A stretch of 42,204 nucleotides of DNA from Erwinia endophytica (lineage in GTDB: Bacteria > Pseudomonadota > Gammaproteobacteria > Enterobacterales > Enterobacteriaceae). The stretch covers positions 1 through 42,204 of the forward strand of contig NZ_RQVV01000056.1 in assembly GCF_009295515.1 (NCBI RefSeq), read 5' to 3'. Positions within the stretch are counted from its first letter, which is position 1. Every line of letters begins with the position of its first letter. Both the position numbers and the translations under genes were made by a program. Positions 1 to 6,530 of this stretch are shown here, piece by piece. Under the pieces are notes generated by a model that did no database searches, was not told the origin of the DNA, and saw only the letters and a list, made by a program, of their open reading frames with translations.

Positions 1-59
1 TCGCTGCAAACTATCGCAGTGGCAAAAATGATACGGCTCAAAACGATGTTACTAGTTAA
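1..59 (+). CDS. possible 3' end of an unidentified gene
   Basis: Frame 3 is open from the window edge to a TAA at 57-59 and gives 18 hydrophilic residues ending NDVTS. The composition (Asn, Asp, Ser, Lys) would suit the C-terminus of a secreted or surface protein. The stretch is too short to identify. A hairpin at 263-282 is a possible terminator for it, although it lies about 200 bases downstream. The assignment is an inference from composition only. Confidence 0.25.
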   Translation, partial: AANYRSGKNDTAQNDVTS

Positions 60-327
60 GTGTCGGCTTAATTATTGGGGGCAGGTCACGGCGGCAAGCT
101 GTACTGGAGATATTGCAATCTGGAGGCCGTTATTCATAATTTATCCAGTAAGAACAATTATTTATTGATAGTCAATAATTCTACTGCGTTACGTAAAAAG
201 TGTTGTCGCCTGACAATCATGGTTCTGTTATCCCCTCTCAATCATCGAAACCTCGCCAACCAGTTGCCTTGTGCAAGGCAACGTTTGTATCCCTGTACAA
301 CTTCATTAGCTGCCAGGCTCGGTTCTG
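60..327. other. intergenic stretch, no convincing gene
   Basis: No reading frame here has both a plausible start site and protein-like composition. The 100-codon plus-strand frame that crosses it runs antisense into the LysR gene and looks spurious. The only structure seen is the hairpin at 263-282. Confidence 0.5.
263..282 (+). terminator. hairpin, possible terminator
   Basis: GTTGCCTT and AAGGCAAC form a perfect 8-bp stem with a GTGC loop, followed by GTTTGT. The T-tract is weak, so termination is uncertain. It lies between the possible upstream gene tail and the convergent LysR gene. Confidence 0.35.
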
Positions 328-1197
328 CTAATTATGAACCCGTTCTTGCAGTAAAGATCGCAGTGCCTGCAAGTTAGCGGAGCGGGTGTTTTTCTTCCAC
401 CATAGCCAGATTTGCGTTGATTGAAAGTTTCCCTTAAGCGGCCAGATACTGAGGTTGTGTTGGGCACCAGGAATGGTAGCCAGAATGCTTTGCGGCGCTA
501 ATGCCAATCCGGCTCCAGCACTGACACATCCCAACATACCATGATAGGACTCCATTTCGGATATTTTGCCAGGACGGACATTTTCAGCTTCGAACCACGA
601 TTCAAAATAGCGGCGATAGGAGCAGACTCTGCGAAATGCATAGAGTTGTGCGCCAGCGACATCTTTCGCGCAGGTGATTGGCGGATGGTTTTTCGCTGCA
701 ACCACCATCATCTGTTCCGTCCACAATGGCATCCCCTCCAGTAAAGGATGCGGTATCGGTCCATCAATAAACGCGGCAGTCAGGCGTCCTTCCAGTAAAC
801 CATTGACCATATCGTCTGAGGCGCCGGTAGAGAAATCCAATTCGACATGTGGGTAACGTTGATGATAAGCCGCCAGGATATCGGGAGCCCTGACCGCTGC
901 GGTGCTCAGTATGGCCCCCAGGCTGAAGCTTCCTTTGGGTTCCGAACTGACCACGGCTTCGCGGGCTTCATCCAGAGTCATAAGAACTTTTTCAGCATAC
1001 TCCAGAAAAATTTTGCCTTGCTCTGAGAGATGCAACCGTAGTTTTTCACGAATGAACAGATCAGTCCCCAGTTCATTCTCAAGCTGTTTGAGTCGGGTGG
1101 ATATATTGGATGGTACCCGGTGCAGAACCTTTGCCGCCTGGCTAATTGATCCTTCACGCGCAACGCTGCAAAAAACTTTTAATTGACTGATGTCCAA
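328..1197 (-). CDS. ptrR: LysR-type transcriptional regulator, PtrR/YneJ-like
   Basis: A 289-residue LysR regulator, the usual family length. Residues 1-60 form the winged helix-turn-helix (SISQAAKVLHRVPSNISTRL), and the rest is a periplasmic-binding-protein-like effector domain. It resembles E. coli PtrR (YneJ) along its length, including the segments FIREK, TAAFIDGPI and EMESYHGML. The start is an unusual TTG. AGGAG lies five bases upstream of it, and the nearby in-phase alternatives lack such a site. It is divergent from the MHS transporter across a 647-base gap, so it may control the transporter and amidase pair, as LysR regulators often act on divergent neighbours. That role is inference. 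The effector is unknown. Confidence 0.85.
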   Translation of the reverse strand: MDISQLKVFCSVAREGSISQAAKVLHRVPSNISTRLKQLENELGTDLFIREKLRLHLSEQGKIFLEYAEKVLMTLDEAREAVVSSEPKGSFSLGAILSTAAVRAPDILAAYHQRYPHVELDFSTGASDDMVNGLLEGRLTAAFIDGPIPHPLLEGMPLWTEQMMVVAAKNHPPITCAKDVAGAQLYAFRRVCSYRRYFESWFEAENVRPGKISEMESYHGMLGCVSAGAGLALAPQSILATIPGAQHNLSIWPLKGNFQSTQIWLWWKKNTRSANLQALRSLLQERVHN

Positions 1198-1844
1198 ACC
1201 ATCTCCTGGAGAGAATGTTACCTTCTCAATTATTCACTATTCAAAATGTTCCCACATTCTTAGATTAAAACGGTGGATTTTTCAACATGCAAACGCAGGA
1301 AAGCACCGGGATGAAGGATGGTGTCACTTTGAAGGTTGAGAACCTTAATGTCAGTAACCCTCGTCGTTTCCGCCAATCCATTAAATGGCGGATGACTCGT
1401 CAGCTATGTCTTTAGTGTGCGAGACCATGGGCTGCGGATATTCGATGATTTATCTTCGGTAGAATTATGGGGACGGTAATTCAGTCATCAGTGATATGCG
1501 AAATTTTCAAAAAAATAGCGCAAATGATTGGCCGAAACAGATAAAGAGATCGGCAACACGATAATGGCTGAGCATCAGGACGAGAATGGATTGGTCAGTG
1601 GGTGTTGTTATTTTTTCTTACATGTGTTTTTTGACATGGTAACTGTCAGGGAAAGTTAAATTTTATTGAATGAACTTTGATTTATAAGAAATTAGTATTG
1701 TTTAAAATAATAGCACTTATGGATAATTGATTACTATAAACTCAAGATCGTATTTTTATTTTTCTAATTTTTTATTCATTATCGTTTGGGATGGTGGATT
1801 ATATTTCATGAGCATTATGCTCTAAATGAATTTAAGAGGGTGGA
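1198..1844. other. long divergent intergenic region
   Basis: This 647-base region separates the LysR gene from the transporter. It becomes strongly AT-rich from about 1600 to 1840 and presumably carries both promoters. A 42-codon frame at 1287-1415 has no recognisable product and no good ribosome site. I see no clear LysR box (T-N11-A) that I would defend by eye. Confidence 0.4.
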
Positions 1845-3119
1845 ATGAAAAGGCAACCTGTCAAAGCCTCAATGGCTTCATTTATCGGAACAATGGTTGA
1901 ATGGTATGACTATTATATTTATGGTACCGCGTCGGCATTAATATTTGGAGCAATATTTTTCCCCTCTGATAATGAGTTTATCAGTACTATTTCATCGTTT
2001 GCGACTTTTGCCGTCGGTTTCCTTGCGCGTCCGTTAGGCGCTGTGCTTTTTGGCGGTTTGGGGGATAAAGTCGGCCGTAAAAAATCTTTGCTGATTACTA
2101 TTTCTATGATGGGGATATCGACATTTCTAATTGGGTTACTACCAGGTTATGCATCCATTGGTATTTGGGCACCCATTTTATTAATCCTGCTCCGATTAAT
2201 CCAGGGGCTTGCCGTGGGGGGAGAATGGGGCGGTGCTGTACTGATTGCTGGTGAACATGCTGAAAAAGGAAATCGAACCTTTATGGCATCGTTTGCTCAG
2301 TTGGGTAGTCCCGCGGGTCTGATTATTTCAATACTCATATTCAAAGTCATTACCGGTTTTGATAATGAATTTATCATGACGATTGGTTGGCGTATTCCAT
2401 TCCTGTTAAGTATTGTTATGCTTGCTATTGGTTTGTTTATACGTTTGGGCATTAATGAATCACCTGATTTTACTGAAGTAAAAGAGAAAAATGAATTGTC
2501 AGATAAACCGGCGAAAGAAGTCTGGCTCCGCCAACCTAAAATTTTAATTGTGACAATTTTCAGTAATGCATTGGGTATCGCCGGTTCATACTTTATTAAT
2601 ACCTTCATGCTATCGTATTGTGTACAAACGTTGAAACTTGAAAAAGAAACGATTCTAAGTTGTCTGTTTATTGCCGCTATCGTTCAATTTTTAATGCAAC
2701 CGGTCAGCGCATGGGCATCTAAGTTCATTGGTGCGGGTAGAATGTTGCTGATCAGTTCATTCGCCGGAGTCGTGGTACCTTATGCCATGTTCAGTTTAGT
2801 TGATACACGAGACTACCATTATATAACGCTGGGTATGAGCCTGGGGATGATCGCAATGTGTAGTTTCTATGCGGTCATTGCAGGATATTTATCAGGAATA
2901 TTCCCCACGCGCTATCGCTACACGGGGATTTCTATCTCTTACCAATTCGCTGGCGCAGTTTTTGGTGGGTTTACTCCAATGGTAGGCGCGCTTCTTTCCC
3001 ATAACATACCGGGTAGCTGGATGCCGTTGGCCATATTTTTCTCAGTCATCTCGCTCTGTTCATTCTTATCGGTACTGTACCTGGAAACGCATAAAAATCT
3101 CTTTGAGGGGGCGGAATGA
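1845..3119 (+). CDS. MFS transporter, metabolite:H+ symporter (MHS) family
   Basis: A 424-residue inner-membrane transporter with about 12 hydrophobic segments. The MFS motif GGLGDKVGRKK lies at residues 70-80. The MHS signature RLIQGLAVGGEWGGA follows in the fourth helix region, and the N-terminus has the typical GTMVEWYDYYIYG. The family includes ShiA, ProP and dicarboxylate carriers, which use proton symport to import organic acids, betaines and similar solutes. AAGAGGG precedes the ATG. The stop overlaps the start of the amidase-like gene by four bases (ATGA), which indicates translational coupling. The natural substrate is therefore likely to be the amide or a related solute hydrolysed by the next gene (inference). 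Specificity cannot be read from the sequence. Confidence 0.85.
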   Translation: MKRQPVKASMASFIGTMVEWYDYYIYGTASALIFGAIFFPSDNEFISTISSFATFAVGFLARPLGAVLFGGLGDKVGRKKSLLITISMMGISTFLIGLLPGYASIGIWAPILLILLRLIQGLAVGGEWGGAVLIAGEHAEKGNRTFMASFAQLGSPAGLIISILIFKVITGFDNEFIMTIGWRIPFLLSIVMLAIGLFIRLGINESPDFTEVKEKNELSDKPAKEVWLRQPKILIVTIFSNALGIAGSYFINTFMLSYCVQTLKLEKETILSCLFIAAIVQFLMQPVSAWASKFIGAGRMLLISSFAGVVVPYAMFSLVDTRDYHYITLGMSLGMIAMCSFYAVIAGYLSGIFPTRYRYTGISISYQFAGAVFGGFTPMVGALLSHNIPGSWMPLAIFFSVISLCSFLSVLYLETHKNLFEGAE

Positions 3120-5233
3120 TTGGTTATTTGTCAGAACTTGACTGTCGACCTGGTGATAAACTGGATGTGATGGTGAGCAGTGATGCCGCTGAGGTCAGCA
3201 TTGATCTTGTCAGGTTAATTAATGGCGATGATCGCCCTGAAGCGCCAGGGCTGCGGTATCAAATCATTGAGAATGTTCCTCAGCAAATTATAAAACCTCA
3301 GTTGCATAAAACGGCTATCGGCTCTTATGGACATTGTGCAGTTGATGTCGCGTTTAAGGGGGCCTTAAATTTTGTTTGTGAATTATATCCCACGTTGTCA
3401 AAAAATGATGTGGAACAAGGAATATTTTGGCTGCCTGGTCTGGATGTTCGCTTATCGATCAATAATCATTCTCGCTTAATGTTAGTATTAAGAGATAATG
3501 TTTTGCTCGAAAGTGATACGTTGGATTTTCATCAGTGGATAAATATCAACGTTACTCTCAGTGAGGAAAAAATCACTCTTATTTTAGACGGTAATACGGT
3601 AACGGAGAAAATTTTTACCGGTAATGGGGTGGTATTAAAGGGTTACAGTCATATTATCATTGCTGCGGCAGGCGGTGCGCCAGATGATGGACGTTTTATT
3701 CCTTCGGGGATCTTTAACGGGAAAATCTCTAATCCACAATTTTCGAGTGGTAATGTACTGATCGCCGGATGGGATTTCTCAACAAACATCAAAGGCCAGT
3801 TTGTTCCGGCGATGACGGCAAGCCAATGCCAGAATCGACTGGATTTAATCAATGCCCCGCAGCGGGCAGTCACAGGCCCGCAATGGAAAGCGAAATGTTA
3901 TGACTGGACGCAGGTTCCAGAGCAATATAACGCGATTCATTTTCATGATGATGATCTGTCAGATGCATGTTGGCCCGTCGCAGCGACCCTGGTTATTCCT
4001 GAAGATCTTGCAAGTGGTATTTATGCGGTTCGGCTTCATGCGGAAGATTTACGTGATGATTTAATCCCGATCATTATTACGCCTGGCAAGGTGGTTGATC
4101 AAAAGCCAGTTTTGCTTGTGTTGCCAACCTATACCTATATGGCTTATGCCAATGAGCGACTGACTGAAGGGGATTACAATAAAACCAGTAAATTACCGCT
4201 TAATCGTGGGGTATGTGAAGATCTGTTGACCAAAAATCCTGAGTGGGGAAAAAGCGTTTATGATCGCCATAATGATGGCTCTGGAGTTGCTTATACCTCT
4301 TCTCGCCGTCCGATCCCCAACTATCGTCCTGATTATCAATTCTGGGGGTTTAGTGGCCCTCGTCGTTTTCCAATTGATTTATATATTGTCTGGTTTTTAA
4401 CCACGTTTGGTTATGAATTTGATGTTATCTCTGAGCACTATTTAGATGCCGTTGGAAGTAAGGCCTTTGATGGATATAAAGCCGTGCTAAGTGGATGCCA
4501 GCCGGAATATTGCAGTGAAAAGATGCTTGATGCCTGGCAGGATTATTACCATTCAGGCGGTAATCTGATGTATCTGGGAGGTGATGGTTTTTATTGGGTT
4601 ACCACCGGTTTCAGTGATGCGCCCTATTTACTTGAAGTACGCAAATCGGAAGGATTCAGACATTGGGAATGTGAGCCGGGTGAACGATATCATGCATCAA
4701 CCGGTGAATTAGGCGGATTATGGCGCACCCGTGGCCGTAGCGCCCATAAACTTTTTGGCGTAGGTATTGGCGGTGCCGGCTGGGATGAGACTACGCCTGG
4801 ATTCACTCGCAGCGCGGTGTCATACCAGGATAAATATGCCTGGATCTTTAAGGATATCAGGCAGTCCGTTATTGGTGACTTCGGTTTAATTATGAATGGT
4901 ACGAGTGGTGATGAAATCGACCGCGTAGACTACAGACTGGGTACACCCAAGTCCACGGTTATTCTGGCCTCTGCTATTGGACATAGTGAGTGGTTTGTAA
5001 CCATACCAGAAGACATTATGAAAGTTTCTAACCGTCTGAATGCGACATATAATCCGGGGGTCCGGTCCGATATGGTGATGATTGGCGAACCCGGCCATGG
5101 TTGTGTTTTCTCCGTGGGATCTATTACTTTCTGCGGTGGGTTACCGGTAAATAATGGTGATAATAATGTCGCACAGTTAATAAGAAATTTATTGGATGGC
5201 TTCATAAATACCCCGATTTTGGGCAGTCAATAG
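3116..5233 (+). CDS. N,N-dimethylformamidase large-subunit family protein
   Basis: A 705-residue protein related to the large subunit of N,N-dimethylformamidase (DMFase). DMFase hydrolyses the amide bond of dimethylformamide to dimethylamine and formate at a mononuclear iron centre bound by two tyrosines and a carboxylate. Residues about 110-230 look like a laminin-G/concanavalin-like beta domain. The conserved catalytic half starts around residue 331 with PVLLVLPTYTYMAYANE. It continues through YDRHNDGSG (from 382), a GGNLMYLGGDGFYWVT block, and EPGERYHASTGELGGLWRTRGR (around 521-542). There is no signal peptide. The enzyme's small subunit (about 130 residues in characterised DMFases) is not seen next to this gene. 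The substrate may well not be dimethylformamide. Four-base overlap with the transporter suggests a two-gene uptake and hydrolysis unit. Confidence 0.8.
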   Translation: MIGYLSELDCRPGDKLDVMVSSDAAEVSIDLVRLINGDDRPEAPGLRYQIIENVPQQIIKPQLHKTAIGSYGHCAVDVAFKGALNFVCELYPTLSKNDVEQGIFWLPGLDVRLSINNHSRLMLVLRDNVLLESDTLDFHQWININVTLSEEKITLILDGNTVTEKIFTGNGVVLKGYSHIIIAAAGGAPDDGRFIPSGIFNGKISNPQFSSGNVLIAGWDFSTNIKGQFVPAMTASQCQNRLDLINAPQRAVTGPQWKAKCYDWTQVPEQYNAIHFHDDDLSDACWPVAATLVIPEDLASGIYAVRLHAEDLRDDLIPIIITPGKVVDQKPVLLVLPTYTYMAYANERLTEGDYNKTSKLPLNRGVCEDLLTKNPEWGKSVYDRHNDGSGVAYTSSRRPIPNYRPDYQFWGFSGPRRFPIDLYIVWFLTTFGYEFDVISEHYLDAVGSKAFDGYKAVLSGCQPEYCSEKMLDAWQDYYHSGGNLMYLGGDGFYWVTTGFSDAPYLLEVRKSEGFRHWECEPGERYHASTGELGGLWRTRGRSAHKLFGVGIGGAGWDETTPGFTRSAVSYQDKYAWIFKDIRQSVIGDFGLIMNGTSGDEIDRVDYRLGTPKSTVILASAIGHSEWFVTIPEDIMKVSNRLNATYNPGVRSDMVMIGEPGHGCVFSVGSITFCGGLPVNNGDNNVAQLIRNLLDGFINTPILGSQ

Positions 5234-5529
5234 GGAGGGTGTGTTGGGTAAGGTCTCTGTTGAGAACGTTGTATCTGCTCAGCAAGGCTGTCGCGCTGTG
5301 GCGTTTATTTTATCTGCAAGGGCGGTTCAATATCGCTTTCTTGACCGAGCGTGAGCCGCTGGAGTGAACCGGTTAAAACAGACAGATGCACTGTTTAAAT
5401 TGCAGGCGAAAAAAATTTCGTCATTCAGACTTGAAATGTATCAAACCGTTCTTATCTGGATGAGCAGGTCAAGCTGACAACGCTCCCACGTGAACTTTTG
5501 AATATATGGGATAATTCAGGAGATAAATC
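5234..5529. other. intergenic region upstream of hsp20
   Basis: No gene is supported. A TTG-initiated frame from about 5243 to 5356 has protein-like composition but no recognised match and could be a remnant. The 3' half holds the heat-shock promoter candidate at 5430-5457. No obvious terminator follows the amidase-like gene. Confidence 0.4.
5430..5457 (+). promoter_or_regulatory. candidate sigma-32 (heat-shock) promoter of hsp20
   Basis: CTTGAAA at 5430-5436 matches the sigma-32 -35 consensus exactly. After a 14-base spacer, CTTATCT at 5451-5457 matches five of seven positions of the CCCATNT -10 element. It lies about 70 bases upstream of the small heat-shock protein start, as expected for an ibp-type gene. 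The call is by eye. Confidence 0.6.
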
Positions 5530-6030
5530 ATGGCGCTTAGAAAATTGTCATTTTTCCCCAGTTTTGTTGACTCTGGTGTTGCAGACCGTTTCAATCGATT
5601 TGATCGCCTCCTTAGTCAGATCTCTGACGATGAAAAGCGGGTCTCTCCCCCTTCTTATGATATTCGTCAGTGTGATGACACGCATTACCATTTAACGATT
5701 AGTGTACCGGGCTGGTCAGAAGATGATTTGGAAATCGAAACGGTGGGTGGACAGCTGACCATTAATGGTAAAAAAGGGACTGAAGAGAAGGATGATGAGG
5801 ATAAATGGATACACCGGGGAATTAATCGCTCTGATTTCCAGTTAACTTATTCTCTTCCAGAGAATGTAAAGGTTACGGGAGCCCGGCTTGAACGTGGCTT
5901 ATTGACGATCCATCTTTATCATGAAATACCTGAGAGTGAGAAACCGAAGAAAATCAGTATTGATATTCGTAAGGATGCAGTAGCGACTGAAAGGGAGGTG
6001 ATTGAGCATCACGCTGATGAGTTGAATTAA
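5530..6030 (+). CDS. small heat-shock protein, Hsp20/IbpA-like
   Basis: A 166-residue Hsp20 chaperone that would bind unfolding proteins in the cytoplasm and pass them to DnaK/ClpB. The alpha-crystallin domain spans about residues 42-130 (YDIRQCDDTHYHLTISVPG at the start). It includes the hallmark ARLERGLLTI at 118-127. The IbpA-type tail IPESEKPKKI follows at 133-142 and carries the I-x-I-like partner motif. It is about 30 residues longer than E. coli IbpA, with an extended N-terminus and an acidic tail. AGGAG precedes the ATG by seven bases. A sigma-32-like promoter lies upstream and a strong terminator downstream, so it is a single-gene unit. It is probably an extra paralogue rather than ibpA or ibpB itself. 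Confidence 0.9.
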   Translation: MALRKLSFFPSFVDSGVADRFNRFDRLLSQISDDEKRVSPPSYDIRQCDDTHYHLTISVPGWSEDDLEIETVGGQLTINGKKGTEEKDDEDKWIHRGINRSDFQLTYSLPENVKVTGARLERGLLTIHLYHEIPESEKPKKISIDIRKDAVATEREVIEHHADELN

Positions 6031-6057
6031 TCCAATCGTCCATATCCTGACAACATT

Positions 6058-6087
6058 AAATAGCCCCGATTTTCATCGGGGTTATTT
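6058..6087 (+). terminator. rho-independent terminator of hsp20
   Basis: CCCCGAT and ATCGGGG pair around a TTTC loop. The flanking AAATAG and TTATTT extend the stem and supply the T-rich tail. It starts 27 bases after the hsp20 stop. Confidence 0.8.
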
Positions 6088-6530
6088 AATGTCACCAATC
6101 GGTGGCGCGTTGGCGTTGTTCAAAGAATGCGGTTTTTTTCTCAGCATGGTAGGAATAATCTGATCGCGAATCTGAAGAGGACAGGATATTTATGGGTAAA
6201 AGCCCGCAAAGCGGGCAGTGCTGAAGGGCTATCGAACAAATTGTATGCAGAACCAGACTACAATAATCATTGGTGCTATTAAACTCCAATGTTTCTGAGA
6301 TATTTCTGAGTTTTGCCTTTTTGTACCCATTCATCCGCCATACTTCAGCTTATTCGGATATTACTTCAGTCCACTTTGCCTGTAGTTTGGTTACGCTTGT
6401 CGGTGCCTGAGTTGATGCTGCGGTGTTCTGTATCCAATAAGGCGTGGGAATATTAAAGGAGCAGGGCGTTTTCAATTGAGAACGGCCACGCTTCAGATTA
6501 TGGTGGCTCGTTCTCGCTGACGGATATGGC
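6088..6530. other. intergenic stretch, no supported gene
   Basis: Minus-strand frames at 6092-6334 and 6350-6622 do not read like real proteins. A GCCCGC/GCGGGC hairpin lies near 6197-6212, and an imperfect 18-base palindrome (CGTTTTCAATTGAGAACG) lies near 6463. Neither has an obvious role. Confidence 0.35.

Follow-up and report, generated by a model that had tools for sequence, protein, structure and literature searches.

A probable acquired import-and-hydrolysis cassette in Erwinia endophytica with an MHS-type transporter and a single-chain DMFA2-type enzyme

We describe a pair of overlapping genes near the start of a 42,204 bp stretch of Erwinia endophytica DNA (the window, which is one entire contig, G000:C52; base 1 is the upstream limit of our reading). 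The pair and the regulator gene opposite it fairly probably form an acquired catabolic cassette, made up of a PtrR-type LysR regulator, an MHS-type importer and a single-chain amide hydrolase of the DMFA2 type with a retuned pocket. The order of events, import followed by C-N bond hydrolysis, is well supported by the anatomy of the locus. The analysis directly shows how the genes are arranged, which fold is predicted, that the metal ligands are retained, that two active-site residues are replaced, that the genome yields no small subunit and that the other genomes of the genus searched lack this type of enzyme; we infer the direction of transport, the regulation, the hydrolytic activity, the metal and the substrate. 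The regulator would control the two coupled genes, the symporter would bring in a small amide-bearing (N-acylated) compound, and the cytosolic enzyme would cleave the C-N bond of that compound by metal-assisted hydrolysis. The metal, presumably Fe3+ by homology, would be bound by Tyr344, Tyr382 and Glu464, Glu600 would act as the base, and the pocket would be retuned by Gln462 in place of an essential His and by Asp490 in place of an oxyanion Asn.

The transporter and its hydrolase neighbours

The gene for the presumed importer (1845..3119, plus strand, 424 amino acids; PF00083 and PF07690) and that for the presumed hydrolase (3116..5233, plus strand, 705 amino acids; PF20254) share four bases (3116-3119) in an ATGA stop/start overlap suggestive of translational coupling, and each start is preceded by a ribosome-binding-site-like stretch, as judged by eye. 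The LysR gene (328..1197, minus strand) points away from the transporter, and its open reading frame (ORF) lies 647 bases from the transporter start. A preliminary description of this DNA had reported the four-base overlap opposite a LysR gene, and both the ORF coordinates and a Pfam scan of the window ORFs (DMFA2_C, E = 4e-78; MFS/Sugar_tr; LysR) confirm it. The AT-rich intergenic region (1198..1844, 36.3% GC) is presumed to hold divergent promoters and regulator sites; they are only presumed because promoter-like matches in 1-6200 numbered seven against a mean of 13.1 in shuffled sequence.

Membership of the transporter in the MFS is established by Pfam, and 'MHS-type' here means nearest to the NCBIfam model TIGR00883, which gave the best score (390 bits) at a value under its cut-off of 443.45; its relatives in loci L140 and L152 likewise fall under the cut-off. 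At E<=1e-120 it was found in just two of 392 family genomes, its own included, and a class-level search at E<=1e-115 returned the own genome alone (1/350). Relatives with 46-52% identity were found on 14 plasmid records, of which eight were fetched, and with one further genome (G379) these gave nine loci for comparison. All nine carry a C-N hydrolase within three genes of the transporter, which supports the earlier proposal of an import-and-hydrolyse unit. The hydrolase is of the M20 family in seven loci (L139-L144 and L146), of the arginase type in two (L145 and L143, the latter also having M20) and of the amidase-signature family in one (L152). It is the adjacent gene except in L139, where the M20 gene is the third one on, and a LysR gene lies opposite the hydrolase-MHS pair in L140, L144 and L146, as in the window. 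The nine loci are not fully independent, since L141 and L142 are both from Caballeronia, and their hydrolases belong to Pfam families unrelated to that of the window enzyme. As a control, nine more distant MHS loci of the genus (36-44% identity) had no M20, arginase-type or DMFA2 gene within 1.5 kb, a short flank (0/9; amidase-signature genes were not queried). At least three of 120 listed homologues (P0152, P0205 and P0237) are named 'acetylpolyamine or polyamine transporter' at source, which is a label and not evidence.

These recurrent hydrolase partners and the four-base translational overlap speak against the notion that transporter and enzyme are neighbours by an accident of acquisition, with unrelated substrates. 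The usual partner of the enzyme's close homologues is an ABC importer, as described below, which would favour such an accident; even so, we regard it as improbable.

Fold and active site of the enzyme

The window enzyme scored 263.9 bits against PF20254 (curated cut-off 27). A first structural model, built from 36 sequences, was poor in the active-site loops (pLDDT, the predicted local distance difference test score, of 73) and was superseded by a model from 122 sequences. The predicted fold matches two kinds of enzyme at 30-32% identity: the large subunit of Paracoccus N,N-dimethylformamidase (DMFase; PDB 6lvb, PF20254), with which the window enzyme shares fold and ligands, and N-acetyl-(R)-beta-phenylalanine acylase (PDB 8huy, 8i59 and 8i5a; approximately 31% identity), which has the same overall fold. 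The P. aminophilus DMFase large subunit exceeds the window protein by 57 residues.

Whether the two-Tyr, one-carboxylate iron site had been kept was the check proposed in the preliminary description, and alignment answers it positively. Tyr344 (codon 4145..4147, plus strand, as are all codons given here), Tyr382 (4259..4261) and Glu464 (4505..4507) correspond to the DMFase iron ligands Tyr399, Tyr440 and Glu521, and Glu600 (4913..4915) corresponds to Glu657, the proposed general base, with Glu at this position in 127/127 aligned sequences. Of the 218 positions that are invariant across 32 other members of the A1 alignment, the window protein keeps 184, and the ligands are retained in relatives at 70-98% identity. 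Ligand retention is nevertheless an incomplete story. Gln462 (4499..4501) stands at the site of the essential His519 of DMFase, and Asp490 (4583..4585) at that of the oxyanion residue Asn547, both of which are kept in the acylase. Asp occurs at the latter site in 34/127 aligned sequences (Asn in the other 93), and Gln was found only in the window enzyme and P0001-P0003, a single clade (4/127; His in 123/127); the relatives at 70-98% identity have this Gln as well. His was also present in all 78 enzyme ORFs obtained from 80 genome-contig loci, a set that partly overlaps the 127.

The H519A and N547A exchanges each abolish the activity of Paracoccus DMFase (PMC7686228). Combined with the confinement of Gln to one clade, the essential role of His519 lends some weight to a different explanation, namely that the replacement ended amide hydrolysis and left a metal-binding family member with a different function, either acting on another bond or binding a substrate without cleaving it. 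We consider this unlikely, though it is the alternative to be taken most seriously: within the Gln clade neither the iron ligands nor the catalytic Glu vary, and the transporter relatives examined accompany C-N hydrolases. With Gln462 and Asp490 in the pocket of the hydrolase that we favour, the substrate, judging from the sequence, is probably not N,N-dimethylformamide (DMF), and the step usually done by His would be performed in another way. The Gln/Asp variant is a natural experiment on which residues of this site are truly needed.

Small subunits, relatives and importers

Characterised DMFases need a small subunit, and the large subunit of the Paracoccus enzyme is inactive alone (PMC7686228). 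The preliminary description had found none beside the gene, and the search of the genome likewise came back empty. A single small-subunit query found no match in this genome at E<=10 (run without a control), and a profile of 10 small subunits (A3, whose members are 20-33% identical to its first sequence) gave nothing at E<=1 in this draft assembly of 61 contigs. The same profile matched all four genomes chosen as positives, of which three (L049, L051 and L077) match by construction because their sequences are rows of the profile, leaving L060 as the independent one; the L049 genome gave a second match besides its own row, and that of Erwinia typographi gave none. With an iterated profile, the small-subunit domain was found in 40 of 83 loci, as short ORFs (10), permease fusions (25), large-subunit fusions (3) or within longer ORFs (2); some of the 43 loci without it end upstream at a contig edge. 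The short branches with ABC linkage (14 loci: L005, L009-L021) yielded no such domain. Among solved structures, the small subunit matched the six DMFase PDB entries alone, and in 8huy the listed chains A and B are both the acylase itself. The absence noted earlier thus stands, whereas its apparent oddness does not, since the ABC-linked loci also lack the domain and the acylase shares the fold. These same two observations, together with the empty profile search, make it improbable that the window enzyme has a second chain after all, either an unrecognisably diverged partner or the genome's second DMFA2 protein in a mixed complex. Such a proposal could draw on the shortness and diversity of small subunits and on L060 being the sole positive control from outside the profile.

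The window protein is a member of the DMFA2 family but departs from DMFase proper on two counts, having no detectable small subunit and neither His519 nor Asn547. That it might still be a true N,N-dimethylformamidase or N-alkylformamidase is suggested by the shared fold and ligands; with two DMFase-essential residues changed, 30-32% identity and no small subunit found, we judge this highly improbable. Moreover, no link was found between a second dmfA1-dmfA2 pair of P. aminophilus and DMF use (PMC4543880).

The 25 permease fusions form a group of their own, in which the small-subunit domain is joined to the C-terminus of a branched-chain-type ABC permease encoded directly upstream of the large-subunit gene (L060:6458-7984; L031, L037, L038, L040, L041, L043-L047, L050, L052, L054, L055, L059, L065-L067, L069, L071, L076, L078, L079, L082). 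The permease domain is present in 25/25 of these ORFs. The fusions suggest that the enzyme docks at its importer, and they allow a direct test of whether substrate is passed from the one protein to the other. In three actinobacterial loci (L068:7605-10202, L074:7608-10166, L075:7605-10208) the large subunit itself carries the domain (approximately residues 9-110) at its N-terminus.

The E. endophytica genome encodes a second DMFA2 enzyme (L005:7988-10096), 53% identical to that of the window, in an operon ordered periplasmic binding protein, double ATPase, permease, enzyme and MarR. The order is identical in six of six other Enterobacterales loci (L009-L014). These enzymes of approximately 700 amino acids resemble the window enzyme in identity (49-53%), in having Asp at the Asn547 site and in the lack of a small-subunit domain nearby; they differ in keeping His and in their ABC operon with a MarR gene (7/7 loci). 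Four actinobacterial loci (L015-L017 and L020) have the order enzyme, binding protein, ATPase and permease. An MHS-type gene was near a DMFA2 gene in one of 80 loci (L073, Amycolatopsis), and L087 has a sodium:solute symporter gene nearby. In a FastTree phylogeny of 83 sequences, the Gln clade was recovered with support of 1.0 as sister (joint node 1.0) to a 38-member group (support 0.89), which includes the own ABC-linked copy and the ABC-linked enterobacterial enzymes, some proteins being present twice under P and L names. Support falls to 0.09 at the next node down, so the order of deeper branches is uncertain. On this tree we reject a recent duplication of the genome's ABC-linked copy as the origin of the window enzyme, whose Gln clade is separate. 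Judging by eye from the sizes and order of flanking ORFs, the ABC-linked operon apparently occupies the same chromosomal place in L005 (4449-11031), L009 and L013.

The family is large (814 of 7995 scored candidates are relatives at E<=0.001), yet the solved structures searched contain only two kinds of enzyme from it. A first single-sequence scan of genome contigs confirmed no relative, and an order-level search with A1 matched two of 394 genomes, the own one and G470, the latter by weak partial matches. In the open-licence literature, where 13 papers mention dimethylformamidase and PMC7686228 alone mentions a small subunit of DMFase, we found no mention of DMFA2_C, no paper on N-acetyl-(R)-beta-phenylalanine acylase, none on a dimethylformamidase fused to a permease and none linking acetylpolyamine with an MHS transporter. 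On a Burkholderia vietnamiensis plasmid (L004:1598-13373), a two-subunit DMFA2 pair lies among genes for an amino-acid ABC transporter, a D-amino acid dehydrogenase and an alanine racemase, a hint that N-acyl D-amino acids are the substrates of that branch.

Several of these observations weigh against the cassette as we read it. The close DMFA2 homologues are paired with an ABC importer and not with an MHS transporter, and the MHS pairing is limited to the window genome and the distant L073; the sequences of P0001-P0003 came without their genomic surroundings, so within the Gln clade the pair has been met in one genome only. The preliminary description held that homologues without the transporter and with another constant partner would speak against an import-and-hydrolyse unit, and this is half the case: the close homologues lack MHS, but their partner is still an importer, of the ribose-type ABC kind. 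RraA-like genes adjoin the distant MHS genes of L126 and L127 (two of nine) as well as that of L139, so the neighbour families of the two sets of MHS genes overlap. Given the activity lost in the H519A and N547A variants, an enzyme with Gln and Asp at these sites may be inactive on amides. Finally, the LysR gene has 50.1% GC, similar to the rest of the window, and because it is not AT-rich it may not have been acquired together with the pair. The swap of transporter opens a route to the real substrates of these enzymes.

Acquisition and regulation

Acquisition had been proposed from the AT-rich flank, and composition, rarity and lack of similarity all support it. The intergenic region, MHS gene (42.3% GC) and DMFA2 gene (44.5%) are poorer in GC than positions 7478-42204 (50.8%), and GC at third codon positions (GC3) is 0.40 in both genes, compared to 0.58 in the genome's other DMFA2 gene. 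DMFA2 genes occur in three of 37 genomes of the genus and four of 392 of the family, counting the own one each time, and the other two in the genus are of the ABC-linked type (L089 and L090, the places of L009 and L013). The best matches elsewhere in the genus reach 44% for the transporter and 58% for the LysR protein. Eight other genus loci share the DUF1198 gene, four of them also the oxidoreductase genes that follow; positions 1-6198 had no blastn match in these eight at E<=1e-4, and similarity begins with scattered out-of-line patches from 6199 and runs in line from approximately 6923. A tRNA scan of the window with ARAGORN came back empty; integrase and transposase genes were not specifically sought.

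The opposing LysR gene of the preliminary description can be refined to a second, diverged PtrR-type paralogue. It passes the PtrR model NF047711 marginally (411.7 bits, cut-off 400), by which an anonymous LysR is rejected. It is not the ordinary PtrR of the genus either, given its best genus match and the 458.2 bits of the genome's other copy (L147:5223-6119, on C23). That copy faces an ORF starting like the L096 dehydrogenase, whose best model is succinate-semialdehyde dehydrogenase (683 bits against a cut-off of 855, in an ORF cut by the locus end). The window gene faces the MHS gene and not a sad-type dehydrogenase gene, the arrangement that marks Group 1. According to PMC9068703, a second group of enterobacterial PtrR (YneJ) genes, without sad, adjoins an uncharacterised MFS gene; the window resembles this Group 2 in layout, with an MFS gene opposite the LysR gene and no adjoining sad gene, and the comparison concerns layout and not the identity of the two MFS genes. 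A site pattern drawn from the E. coli (Group 1) sites of that paper had no intergenic match at two mismatches; the whole window held two matches, fewer than the chance mean of 10.7, and neither lies near the gene pair.

According to the same paper, E. coli PtrR leaves its site when gamma-aminobutyric acid (GABA) is added (PMC9068703). A PtrR-type regulator, along with the arginase-type enzymes and deacylases that accompany related transporters, hints at an N-substituted putrescine- or GABA-like substrate, a tentative suggestion more likely wrong than right and the weakest of our inferences. A wider proposal is similarly doubtful: the enzyme would be a new catalytic variant among the two-Tyr, one-carboxylate iron hydrolases, working without the His or a small subunit; beside its transporter it would have taken the place that hydrolases of at least three unrelated families hold elsewhere in that transporter group, and it would release an amine resembling putrescine or GABA from its N-acyl form; DMFase-type enzymes would more widely be importer-docked amidases, with the small subunit as a docking piece that is permease-fused in many bacteria.

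Downstream of the pair lies a gene at 5530..6030 (plus strand), which was considered as a hidden small subunit and ruled out, as Pfam identifies it as Hsp20 (PF00011, 1.6e-16). With a GC3 of 0.39, it probably belongs to the acquired stretch and not to the mechanism.

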